A DNA stretch of 37,509 bases from Saccoglossus kowalevskii (taxonomy: Eukaryota; Hemichordata; Enteropneusta; Harrimaniidae): the NCBI RefSeq assembly GCF_000003605.2, contig NW_003133383.1, positions 1-37,509 of the forward strand, given 5' to 3'. Of the stretch, positions 1,325 to 37,464 are shown one piece after another. A program made the position numbers and the translations under genes. Under the pieces are notes generated by a model that was not told where the DNA came from, did no database searches, and worked only from the letters and a program-made list of their open reading frames with translations. Each line of letters begins with the position of its first letter. The stretch's first letter is position 1.

Positions 1325-1392
1325 GTGTAGAATTTGGTGCACGAATGATTACAATTGATGGCAAACAAATAAAACTTCAGATATGGGACACA
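1325..1392 (+). CDS. RAB2A: Rab2 exon, residues 40-62 (switch I end to WDT)
   Basis: The acceptor is ttacag at 1319-1324 and the donor is gtaagt at 1393. The exon begins with the last two bases of the codon for Gly40 and ends in phase 0 after QIWDT. The intron therefore splits the G3 motif WDT|AGQE, just ahead of the catalytic Gln65. Confidence 0.95.
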
Positions 1393-35000: not shown

Positions 35001-37464
35001 AAGTATTACAATAACACAATAACATTTCCTGTGCAATGTTTCTCCCACAGAATCCATGATTTAGGGCATAATTCAATGTTTGTTCATGTTTAAAAATGTC
35101 CACAACATATGGAATACACACAAAAAAAATTCTAATTTCTAAACTGAGCTGTTAATGATGATATAGTTTGTCCCTCTCTGAGTGGAGCAAGAAGGCTCAA
35201 ATGCTTATAAACCAAACGATTCACTTTTCTGAAATGAGCGCAGTTCTAAAACATTCATTAAATGTTCAACGAAAACTGTAACATGACTTATTTTCACTGG
35301 GTTTAAATTTCACTGATTTACCATTTCAGGCATATTCAGTGGGTTTTAAATTCACTGTTTCGTCATTTAGATGTGTTCTATGCTAAATTTTACATATTCA
35401 CTGGGTTTTAATTTAGCGCACTTTCCAGTCAGCGAAATGAGCTAAATTAAAACCCAGTGAATAATTACCCCCTTTACAGTATTCAAAAATTCATAATTCA
35501 GGAGTATTTTGCGAGTCTGTCAAAACTTCACTTCCACAATATTTTGCATTTCTTATTTTATTCATTCATGATTGTTGAAAACACTGTTATGTTATGTCTT
35601 TTTGTTATGCAGACAAAACTGTATTTTAGCTGATGAGATGGGTTTGGGTAAAACCATCCAGTCGATAGCTTTCTTATTGGAGGTATGGGAATATGGAATT
35701 AAAGGGCCGTTCCTGATTATAGCGCCATTATCAACCATAGCGAACTGGCAAAGAGAGTTTGAAACCTGGAGTAATGTTAACTGTGTAGTACATCATGGCA
35801 GTGCAACAAGTAGAAGAATGATTCAAGAGTATGAAATGTACTTTAATAATGAAAAGGTCAGTATTTAAAGCTCTTCATGGGTACATGCATCAAGTCTGTA
35901 GAGTATAAAGTACACATGCTGCTACACACTCGTTTTAACCCAACAAGTTTTTATTAATTTTGTTTGCTTATTGTTTTGGTAAAAATGTACTCATCACCAT
36001 AGTTTTGGACTGAAACAGGTTTTTTAAAGACATTCCTTGTGCCTTGTATACTAGAATCTGTTCAAATGTCATTGGTGCTTTTGATTTCTCACCAAAACTT
36101 GTTTAAAGTTTGTCCTTGTTTATTTATCTTGCAGGGTCAAAGGATTCCTAATATATATAAATTCCAAGTGCTGGTGACAACATATGAAATTATTTTGGCT
36201 GATAATGATCTGCTTAGTCAAATTGAATGGAGATGCGTTGTTATTGATGAAGCTCACAGATTAAAGAATAAAAATTGTAAACTTTTAGAAGGACTCAGAT
36301 TGTTGAATTTTGTAAGTACTTCACTTATTGATAACATGTTGCTGCGATCAAACCCTAACCTAATCAGTTAATTATACCACATTTGCTCTATTACAAGTGT
36401 GTTTTTAAATAGTGATGGATATAATAAAATTTATTTACATAAATGAATGAGTCAAATTCAGTATCACATTAGCTCTGTTAGTAGCACATGTGCTTATGTA
36501 AATAGTAGGATTCAAATAAGATGTTTTTATTTGTAGCGTTAGATTTATTTGACATAATTGCTTGTGATATCAGATACATTTTGCTTGTAGCCTTTGGCAT
36601 TTAGGGTATTTGCAAGATATCAGTCAGAAGTTGTTTACAAATAGCCAAACATTTACATAGATTAAGTTATGATAGTTTTCAGCATCTTAGGAGTCAAGTC
36701 CAAATGCATGCATGACTTTCTGACCGATAATTCAAATATTATCGATATTAATCATTTCCGATAGGGTTGTTTGTTATGACCGTCTTTTTCCAGTAGTTGT
36801 GTATTCTAGGTCTCTTCCTTCTAAATTTATGACATTTGTTGTCACTGCGCCCAAGCAAACATCAAAACATTTTGTTCTTTCTAAGCTGTGCATATTCTAA
36901 AGCCAGATTCAATAACATTTGGGATTTTAAAAATGTGCTGATAAACTATATATTAGTTGCAGAGTGACAAGTTCCGACAGGTTTAACTTGTGAACTCCTG
37001 ATTTTAGTTCATGGGTCAATTTATTGCGCATGTTGAAGAATTTTAAAAGAATTTTAGCAGATAATACATTGAGTATGGACCATTTTCATTTATTTATCAT
37101 TACGAATTGCTCTCCTCCTGCAGTACTTTGAATACCCACATACCATGTTGAAGAATTTGCCTGACATCGTACTTGATAATGTGATAAGTGTGGCCTCAAG
37201 AAAACCTCCGTTCAAAGAATTACATCATGACACACTGTACTTTGTTGTGGTTAATAATCTGTGCATTAGGCAGTACTTATAACTGTATGTTATTGGTTAC
37301 AGGAACACAGAGTACTTCTTACGGGTACGCCTCTACAAAATAATGTGGAAGAGCTTTTTAGTTTACTTAACTTCTTGGAACCAGATCGTTTTGGTTCTCT
37401 ATCAGCATTCCTTCAGGAGTTTGGTGACTTGAAGACTGAAAGTCAAGTGGAAAAACTGCAACAG
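21235..37464 (+). CDS. CHD7: CHD6/7/8/9-class chromatin remodelling ATPase (kismet-like), 5' half
   Basis: Join of 21235-23016, 28039-28343, 32505-32808, 33258-33388, 33767-33875, 34203-34427, 34871-34998, 35613-35856, 36135-36311 and 37303-37464. All junctions are GT-AG and in frame, giving 1189 residues so far. Order: Gln-rich disordered N-terminus (1-594), basic EKANRI linker (about 630-690), acidic/KRRSSRN segment (697-797), chromodomain 1 (about 798-870), chromodomain 2 (about 880-935), SNF2 ATPase start with Walker A DEMGLGKT (1002-1009), DEAH (1114-1117) and LLTGTPLQN. The rest of the helicase, SANT/SLIDE and BRK domains lie beyond the window. The family slides nucleosomes with ATP and reads methylated histone H3 tails at enhancers and promoters. 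Residues are about equally close to vertebrate CHD7, CHD8 and CHD9, so this is probably their single ancestor; the symbol is nominal. Confidence 0.95.
21487..21525 (+). repeat. Polyglutamine tract 1 (13 Gln)
   Basis: Mixed CAG/CAA codons encode Gln85-97, preceded by QQQPA. The CAA interruptions should slow length change. Confidence 0.95.
21937..21984 (+). repeat. Polyglutamine tract 2 (16 Gln)
   Basis: Mixed CAG/CAA codons encode Gln235-250, preceded by alternating V-Q residues. A third, shorter run (5 Gln) lies at about 22812-22826. Confidence 0.95.
23638..24076. other. Assembly gap (439 N)
   Basis: The run of N lies inside repeat copy B in the first coding intron of CHD. Open frames crossing it are artefacts. 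Confidence 1.
24170..24256 (+). repeat. Dispersed repeat segment X, copy 2
   Basis: Nearly identical to 53-140 (attttctaatgatatcttct, agcggagctatctcagccga). It lies just after the assembly gap. Confidence 0.7.
25274..25966. mobile_element. 693-bp Tc1/mariner-type MITE
   Basis: Long terminal inverted repeats of about 105 bp: left 25274-25377 starts CAGCAAGTCTCAGAAGTATT, and right about 25863-25966 is its diverged reverse complement, ending in CTTGCTG. Both share the inner palindrome-like core aattcgctagcgag. The element is flanked by TA on each side (25272-25273 and 25967-25968). The uninserted sequence survives in repeat copy A at 2818-2835, with a single TA. The CAG...agaagtatt end resembles Tc1-like TIRs. 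No transposase is encoded, so it would depend on an element elsewhere. Confidence 0.85.
27763..27777 (+). promoter_or_regulatory. CTCF-like motif
   Basis: TCAGTAGAGGGCGCT fits the vertebrate consensus CCASYAGRKGGCRSY at 14 of 15 positions. It lies 261 bp before the second coding exon of CHD, in non-repetitive DNA. Occupancy is not shown. Confidence 0.35.
28039..28343 (+). CDS. CHD7: CHD exon, basic EKANRI linker (residues 595-696)
   Basis: The acceptor is ttctacag and the donor is gtaaga at 28344. [23 protein letters not shown]...VPRV matches the EKANRI-AEA-A-A-ARG-...-IPRV block of CHD8 and CHD9 just ahead of the chromodomains. The exon ends in a Lys-rich stretch with [14 protein letters not shown], a likely nuclear localisation signal, and in the first two bases of an Arg codon. 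Confidence 0.93.
28508..28535. repeat. (TATTG)n microsatellite
   Basis: Five units, the last with one substitution (gtattgtattgtattgtattgcattg). Confidence 0.9.
31030..31388 (+). mobile_element. LINE 3' end with (TATC)n tail
   Basis: The + strand frame at 31054-31281 ends [17 protein letters not shown] then [11 protein letters not shown], like the last ~30 residues of CR1/L2-type ORF2 (compare DELFPI...FAKFIFYI at 16580 on the minus strand). A 3' UTR follows, with aaataaaatatctatctata at the end. It is heavily 5'-truncated; the 5' boundary is a guess. Confidence 0.5.
32505..32808 (+). CDS. CHD7: CHD exon, acidic/basic segment (residues 697-797)
   Basis: The acceptor is tcttcag and the donor is gtaagt at 32809. 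It encodes [12 protein letters not shown], an acidic Ser/Asp run with [10 protein letters not shown] (likely phosphorylated), and [20 protein letters not shown], which matches KRRSNRQVKRKKYTEDLD in CHD8. It ends FFV in phase 0, and the next exon starts ENPDE, giving the FFVENP of the family. Confidence 0.94.
32809..33257 (+). other. CHD intron, 449 bp
   Basis: AT-rich, ends ctatag. Nothing recognised. Confidence 0.9.
33258..33388 (+). CDS. CHD7: CHD exon, chromodomain 1 first half
   Basis: Residues 798-841. [15 protein letters not shown] starts chromodomain 1 and EEFFVKYKN is its beta2 strand. The donor is gtatgt at 33389. The last two bases (TT) join with T of the next exon to give Phe in [11 protein letters not shown]. 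Confidence 0.95.
33389..33766 (+). other. CHD intron, 378 bp
   Basis: Contains three related short units, cctaatagaagtcgcaccc (about 33491), ctctaatagaagctgcatcc (about 33561) and tttaatagtagcc (about 33595), a decayed local repeat. No gene. Confidence 0.8.
33767..33875 (+). CDS. CHD7: CHD exon, chromodomain 1 second half
   Basis: Residues 841-877. [19 protein letters not shown] includes the aromatic-cage Trp of chromodomain 1, and IKRFKAKQ follows. Acceptor cttacag, donor gtaagt at 33876, phase 0. Confidence 0.95.
33876..34202 (+). other. CHD intron, 327 bp
   Basis: Nothing recognised. Confidence 0.9.
34203..34427 (+). CDS. CHD7: CHD exon, chromodomain 2
   Basis: Residues 878-952. [16 protein letters not shown] then [18 protein letters not shown] is a complete second chromodomain with the family-typical YEDSTWE. 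A 75-codon exon, phase 0 at both ends, donor gtaagt at 34428. Confidence 0.96.
34428..34870 (+). other. CHD intron, 443 bp
   Basis: Nothing recognised. The acceptor is tattgcag. Confidence 0.9.
34871..34998 (+). CDS. CHD7: CHD exon, entry to the SNF2 ATPase (residues 953-995)
   Basis: [13 protein letters not shown] then [19 protein letters not shown], the Q-motif-like YQLEGVNWL start of the SNF2 N-terminal lobe. Ends in GG of Gly995, donor gtaagt at 34999. Confidence 0.95.
34999..35612 (+). other. CHD intron, 614 bp
   Basis: Ends gttatgcag. Its middle (35284-35480) is occupied by a repeat with a perfect 22-bp hairpin. Confidence 0.9.
35284..35480. repeat. TTCACTGGGTTTTAA repeat with perfect 22-bp hairpin
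   Basis: Three direct units of ttcactgggttt(t)aa lie at about 35294, 35336 and 35397. The last forms a perfect inverted repeat with 35442-35463 (arms 35395-35416 and 35442-35463, 22 bp, 25-nt loop). The edges attaccccctttacagta and aactgtaacatg may be element ends. Looser relatives occur at 14010-14165. Probably a short non-autonomous element. Confidence 0.7.
35613..35856 (+). CDS. CHD7: CHD exon, Walker A (motif I) and Ia
   Basis: Residues 995-1076. [17 protein letters not shown] carries the ATP-binding Lys1008, and [17 protein letters not shown] is motif Ia. Acceptor gttatgcag, donor gtcagt at 35857, phase 0. Confidence 0.97.
36135..36311 (+). CDS. CHD7: CHD exon, DEAH box (motif II)
   Basis: Residues 1077-1135. 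[12 protein letters not shown], then [20 protein letters not shown] with the catalytic DEAH at 1114-1117 (36246-36257). Acceptor cttgcag, donor gtaagt at 36312, phase 0 at both ends. Confidence 0.97.
36312..37302 (+). other. CHD intron, 991 bp
   Basis: AT-rich, ends ggttacag. No gene or clear repeat seen. Confidence 0.9.
37303..37464 (+). CDS. CHD7: CHD exon, motif III (LLTGTPLQN)
   Basis: Residues 1136-1189. [19 protein letters not shown], then [19 protein letters not shown]. The donor is gtagat at 37465 (weaker than the others), and the intron runs off the window. The next exon, with the end of lobe 1 and the second helicase lobe, is not present. Confidence 0.96.

Follow-up and report, generated by a model that had tools for sequence, protein, structure and literature searches.

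In this study, we analysed a stretch of 37,509 bases (hereafter called the window), which opens scaffold C2537 (bases 1-37509 out of 84,231) of a draft genome comprising 572 Mb in 4830 contigs, and found that it carries most of a Rab2 gene followed on the same strand by the 5' half of a CHD6-9 gene. Further along the scaffold, on the same strand again, lies what appears to be a gene for a pocket protein of the RBL1/RBL2 type. Directly observed are the genes, the order and strand in which they lie on one scaffold, and their single loci in the readable (i.e., non-N) genome, to which all single-locus counts here refer; we infer that the order is ancestral. In our judgement, therefore, the window very probably belongs to an ancestral same-strand row, Rab2-CHD6-9-RBL, in a non-vertebrate genome, and the gene pairs of vertebrates represent copies of this row from two rounds of whole-genome duplication (2R) with differing losses. 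In terms of mechanism, a single pre-2R row in the vertebrate stem would have been copied by both duplications, and each copy would have lost different members; RAB2A-CHD7, RAB2B-CHD8, CHD9-RBL2, and RBL1 with CHD6 would be the leftovers. Slow and mostly passive rearrangement may have kept the row. As families, Rab2 serves Golgi and endosome traffic, CHD nucleosome remodelling and RBL cell-cycle repression; each gene here probably works within its own pathway, with no joint mechanism indicated, and the row was probably kept by inheritance. As a kind of finding, this is ordinary ancient microsynteny, and real.

A first-pass annotation of the window had placed the end of Rab2 at 7576 and the CHD start codon at 21235 on the same strand, with which the exons, splice junctions and domains all agree. 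It had also taken the window to hold Rab2, and this is right for exons 3-6; the window opens inside the gene, however, and exons 1 and 2 are found on the minus strand of another scaffold, C2986. The exons of Rab2 in the window are as follows.

1325..1392, + strand: Rab2 exon 3, encoding 23 residues (genome search, alignment, splice check)
5447..5529, + strand: Rab2 exon 4 (genome search, alignment, splice check)
6146..6419, + strand: Rab2 exon 5 (genome search, alignment, splice check)
7481..7576, + strand: Rab2 exon 6 with the C-terminal CC and the stop codon (genome search, splice check)

Each of the seven Rab2 splice junctions that the window covers conforms to AG/GT. When identities were counted by eye from the alignment, the protein matched human Rab-2A at 128 of 131 residues and Rab-2B at 126 of 137, and exon 1 on C2986 shares 14 of its 15 residues with a human sequence not drawn from a database. 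The Ras domain with Rab2-specific sequence is present, the C-terminus reads GGGCC, and the only three distinct PDB sequences matching at 1e-60 were Rab-2A, Rab-2B and GH01619p, the last of which we take to be the fly Rab2. In the whole genome, the Rab2 query gave 45 matches, four of which were the window exons (75-97%, with alignments running past the exon ends); exon 2 on C2986 matched at 81%, the next-best match by score reached 41% over 172 residues, and shorter pieces of other Rabs matched at up to 74% over 31 residues. Rab2 is a single locus. In the intron between exons 4 and 5, we also noticed a stretch of about 43 bases that occurs twice in nearly identical form (about 5924-5966 and 6031-6073).

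The CHD gene is represented by ten coding exons, of which the final one is followed by the run of N at the end of the window.

21111..23016, + strand: CHD exon with the ATG at 21235 (reading of open reading frames, splice check)
28039..28343, + strand: CHD exon (reading of open reading frames, splice check)
32505..32808, + strand: CHD exon with an acidic and a 17-residue segment ahead of the chromodomains (splice check)
33258..33388, + strand: CHD exon, start of chromodomain 1 (Pfam, genome search, splice check)
33767..33875, + strand: CHD exon, chromodomain 1 (Pfam, genome search, splice check)
34203..34427, + strand: CHD exon, chromodomain 2 (Pfam, genome search, splice check)
34871..34998, + strand: CHD exon, start of the SNF2 ATPase (Pfam, genome search, splice check)
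35613..35856, + strand: CHD exon, ATPase with the ADEMGLGKT motif (Pfam, genome search, splice check)
36135..36311, + strand: CHD exon, ATPase with the DEAH box (Pfam, genome search, splice check)
37303..37464, + strand: CHD exon, ATPase, final one ahead of the N run (genome search, splice check)

AG and GT were present at nine of nine acceptors and ten of ten donors, within two bases of the first-guess boundaries, and Pfam recognised Chromo in two stretches and then SNF2-rel_dom (E 2e-60). A possible acceptor at 21109-21110, read from the sequence, suggests an untranslated first CHD exon upstream of 21111. The N-terminal exon contains two long glutamine tracts, at about 21470-21527 and 21937-21985. 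Searching the whole genome with the CHD query returned 27 matches, seven in the window at 79-100% and 20 elsewhere at 33-64%, and CHD6-9 is a single locus.

The human CHD, RBL1 and RB1 sequences used for comparison in this study were not drawn from a database. With this reservation, the window CHD has 62-65% identity with every one of human CHD6-9, 47% with CHD4 and 39% with CHD1, and the four human CHD6-9 rows share 73-76% among themselves. A tree of the CHD6-9 family had been proposed as a test of the annotation; in our seven-row tree, the four human CHD6-9 group apart from the window gene with a support of 71/88 at an open fork, which speaks weakly against a place of the window gene inside one vertebrate clade. 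These figures bear on the idea that the window is itself vertebrate and belongs to the CHD7 or CHD8 lineage after the duplication. The closeness of Rab2 to human Rab-2A would fit that idea, but we give it next to no credence, because Rab2 and CHD6-9 are each found at one locus, because the human CHD paralogues are more alike among themselves than any of them is to the window gene, and because of the mitochondrial code described below.

Mitochondrial genes are found on contig C4830. In cox1, seven TGA codons lie inside the frame, and the eight ATA codons of the matched stretch, compared by eye with a mammalian-type chain, face Ile five times, Val twice, Leu once and Met never. Vertebrate mitochondria read ATA as Met; the reading of ATA as Ile thus marks the genome, by its codon usage, as non-vertebrate. 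Also, Lys positions are occupied by AAA (KLFIKEP), and of the two AGA codons in nad1 one falls at a position that is usually Ser. Such a code would suit enteropneust hemichordates better than echinoderms, molluscs or cnidarians. On this contig, cox1 lies on the strand opposite nad1 and cox2, an arrangement that makes any assignment to a phylum tentative.

The single Rab2, the single CHD6-9, the non-vertebrate genome and the vertebrate maps considered below together support the proposal of the first-pass annotation that the window preserves an unduplicated pre-2R order, to which RBL is now added as a third member. From the Rab2 stop to the CHD ATG there are 13,658 bases, and both genes are on the + strand; by our own arithmetic, with tens of thousands of genes, the odds of one named gene being the next downstream on the same strand are about 1 in 50,000. 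The interval had been described as only transposon debris, which is accurate for one reverse transcriptase fragment (RVT_1), the single match over the Pfam cut-off and, by our reading, probably of the LINE (long interspersed nuclear element) type.

11448..11833, + strand: reverse transcriptase fragment, cut by N 11834-12296 (RVT_1, E 1.4e-8)

The rest of the interval includes this N run and six scanned frames with no match. Among the 13 open reading frames of at least 100 residues listed between the genes, eight were scanned against Pfam and the five spanning the N run were left out; besides the RVT_1 match there was one sub-threshold match, to zf-TFIIIC in the frame at 20051-20368. Genes made of short exons may be present in the interval.

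The third member of the row lies on C2537 beyond a long N run that ends at 62492. Five exons follow one another on the + strand (63114-63215, 63417-63554, 63929-64141, 77549 on, and 83752-83886), on the same scaffold and strand as Rab2 and CHD, and the scaffold ends inside the gene. Two DUF3452 matches were over the cut-off in the genome, both of them in these exons and collinear; human RBL1 matches the best exon at 66% over 71 residues, and RB1 gave only matches of E 0.7 or worse on C2537. The gene at 63114-83886 thus appears to be that of a pocket protein of the RBL1/RBL2 type, of which these exons cover the N-terminal part, and RBL is a single locus. Compared with solved structures, it gave one match, a designed protein at E 0.76.

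What fills the N run between CHD and RBL may be the 3' half of the CHD gene. CHD7-9 carry two BRK domains, and a BRK search of the genome gave three matches. One falls on C3655, a scaffold that has SNF2 matches as well and probably carries a Brahma-like gene; the other two, the only pair, are on C3540. This scaffold (22,905 bases, covered here from 9001 on, with N at 9001-12104) aligns in its readable part collinearly with a CHD C-terminal half, likewise not drawn from a database. The aligned stretches are 12252-12434 (62% of 61 residues), 13109-13348 (43% of 82) and, weakly, the BRK pair at 18861-19211; position 20610, where the last long frame closes 2.3 kb short of the scaffold end, is in our reading the CHD stop. 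C3540 would therefore be the 3' half of the CHD gene of the window, and its length would fit the N run of 24,983 bases between the CHD 5' half and RBL. A course of CHD directly into RBL is hence supported, if without proof. Should that N run not be an assembly gap, C3540 would rather represent an allelic copy, with no change to the gene order.

Several observations weigh against the proposal of an ancestral row. The gene order in invertebrates is known here from this genome alone. To a weak degree, the CHD tree also counts here, being poorly supported and built on human sequences not drawn from a database. A genome-wide search for the RB_A pocket domain, run without a positive control, gave no match, and the first RBL exon, when scanned by itself, matched a different Pfam family and that below the cut-off, so that the RBL call rests on the N-terminal exons. 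The remaining observations concern the assembly, and they would be expected if the scaffold were misjoined, or secondarily rearranged, such that the genes are not true neighbours or were joined only in this lineage. The reverse-transcriptase element in the interval from Rab2 to CHD contains an N run of 463 bases (11834-12296), and the N run C2537:37510-62492 separates CHD from RBL. No sequence is common to C3540 and C2537 where both can be read, so that the placement of C3540 in the gap rests on fit only. Furthermore, C2986 is itself probably misjoined at repeats: after Rab2 exon 2 toward exon 3 it shows the only ITPK1 exons matched in the genome (C2986:8048-14737, minus strand), and copies of a repeat together with an N run (19246-19828) separate them from exon 2. 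Such a failure of the C2537 scaffold is nonetheless improbable in our view, since a misjoin would need to recreate by chance two pairings that vertebrates show, and since C3540 suits the gap between CHD and RBL in both size and content.

We considered whether ITPK1 might be nested in intron 2 of Rab2; given the N run and the repeat copies, a misjoin at the repeat is the more likely reading. Bases 1-143 of the window are themselves a piece of this repeat, a young one that recurs at 99% in at least 39 other places. On C2586, a pair of its copies lie in one orientation and 6.0 kb apart, like a pair of long terminal repeats. C2986 also carries, upstream of Rab2 and on its strand, a gene whose product has a DNA-binding domain of the HSF type (28204-31064, minus).

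The ancestral row is best appreciated against the vertebrate gene maps. A 184-kb deletion that causes CHARGE syndrome removes RAB2 and the 5' region of CHD7 with its untranslated exon 1, as described in PMC4559162, from which RAB2A adjoins the start of CHD7. From the probe coordinates of PMC4236449 (CHD8, chr14 minus 21876574; RAB2B, chr14 minus 21944689), RAB2B and CHD8 share a strand, with RAB2B as the upstream gene, and the start of exon 2 in the RAB2B probe is the same as in Rab2 of this genome. The order listed in PMC10340279 is SUPT16H, CHD8, RAB2B, TOX4, METTL3 and SALL2, which puts SUPT16H next to CHD8 on its other side. As in the human pairs RAB2A-CHD7 (8q12) and RAB2B-CHD8 (14q11.2), therefore, Rab2 adjoins CHD on its upstream side in our window. 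The earlier statement that Rab2 is upstream on the same strand in both pairs holds for the two adjacencies and for the strand of RAB2B; the strand of RAB2A is unstated in the source. Unlike this genome, the passages of PMC4559162, PMC10340279, PMC4236449 and PMC10953390 dealing with the two pairs name no RBL around them.

In human, CLVS1 presumably follows CHD7. We likewise assume the strand and the immediate adjacency of CHD9 and RBL2. CHD9, RBL2, AKTIP and FTO are described in one region in both cattle and human (PMC9999328, PMC8082910), so that human chromosome 16 and cattle BTA18 resemble our scaffold in having a CHD6-9 gene and an RBL gene in one region; unlike here, no Rab2 is named in the described region. 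Along 20q, RBL1 is followed later by CHD6 and later still by TOX2, with many genes between RBL1 and CHD6 (PMC3635907). According to PMC7471279, CHD9, CHD6 and CHD7 are paralogues from early vertebrate duplication in chicken; its CTCF-associated 2R paralogon covers three of four chromosomes, and its main text names these three genes with no match for RBL1 or TOX. CHD8 would then mark the fourth chromosome. The vertebrate expansion of Rabs in general has been ascribed to two rounds of genome duplication (PMC3425129). Microsynteny blocks of the bilaterian ancestor are reported to be largely kept in ambulacrarians and lophotrochozoans, with 84% lost in vertebrates (PMC8851819), and the main text of that study gave no match for Rab2, CHD or RBL. 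Among the open-access papers listed, judged by titles and the openings of abstracts, none describes Rab2 linked to CHD, or CHD to RBL, in an invertebrate.

From the human lists, in which TOX4 follows RAB2B and TOX2 lies beyond CHD6, we also tried TOX as a candidate upstream of Rab2. The TOX query gave three matches in the genome, two of which are exons of one C3171 locus and the third a 33% match on C4304. The former is a TOX-type HMG gene beside a Kelch gene (C3171:62334-79406); C3171 reads N at 1-62217 and shows no link to C2537 or C2986, and TOX is at most a possible member of the row.

Survival of the linkage might alternatively reflect constraint, with CHD enhancers located within introns of Rab2 or between the two genes holding Rab2 as a bystander, which would add to the ancestral row rather than replace it. 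In human CD4+ T cells, single-nucleotide polymorphisms of the RAB2A-CHD7 locus contact CHD7 (PMC10953390), and DNA upstream of CHD7 can thus touch CHD7 in humans. Also, in the section on H3K27ac HiChIP of PMC6823490, a table seen here apart from its column headings, the row of rs6987084 gives CHD7, RAB2A and CLVS1. The CHARGE deletion would be consistent with such elements, but it removes exon 1 and probably the promoter as well. Furthermore, the available lists name no Rab2 beside CHD9 or CHD6, from which the Rab2-CHD linkage seems dispensable, and the interval here has accommodated a reverse transcriptase fragment. We therefore regard the enhancer explanation as unlikely, if worth keeping in mind. 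More doubtful still is an extended form, in which the ancestor of bilaterians or of deuterostomes had a single regulatory neighbourhood made of Rab2, CHD6-9, RBL and possibly an upstream TOX, kept together by elements in common that the four vertebrate copies later split among CHD6, 7, 8 and 9. If that were true, the upstream landscape of each disease gene would be a fragment of an ancestral landscape that is still whole here.

For the inherited row itself, three partial human pairings are joined into one, and a definite gene row is predicted for amphioxus, hemichordates, echinoderms and molluscs. CHD8 is associated with autism. The window thereby offers a single-copy outgroup locus for the regions of CHD8 and of CHD7, the CHARGE gene of PMC4559162, and a useful invertebrate reference for the 2R paralogon, and it suggests that ancient regulatory elements of CHD be sought on the upstream side of that gene, in the direction of Rab2 and inside it. 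Apart from the row, we noticed five Ras-family matches of near-equal score on the 3.2-Mb scaffold C2261, each in one open frame, which are seemingly an amplified, intronless family.

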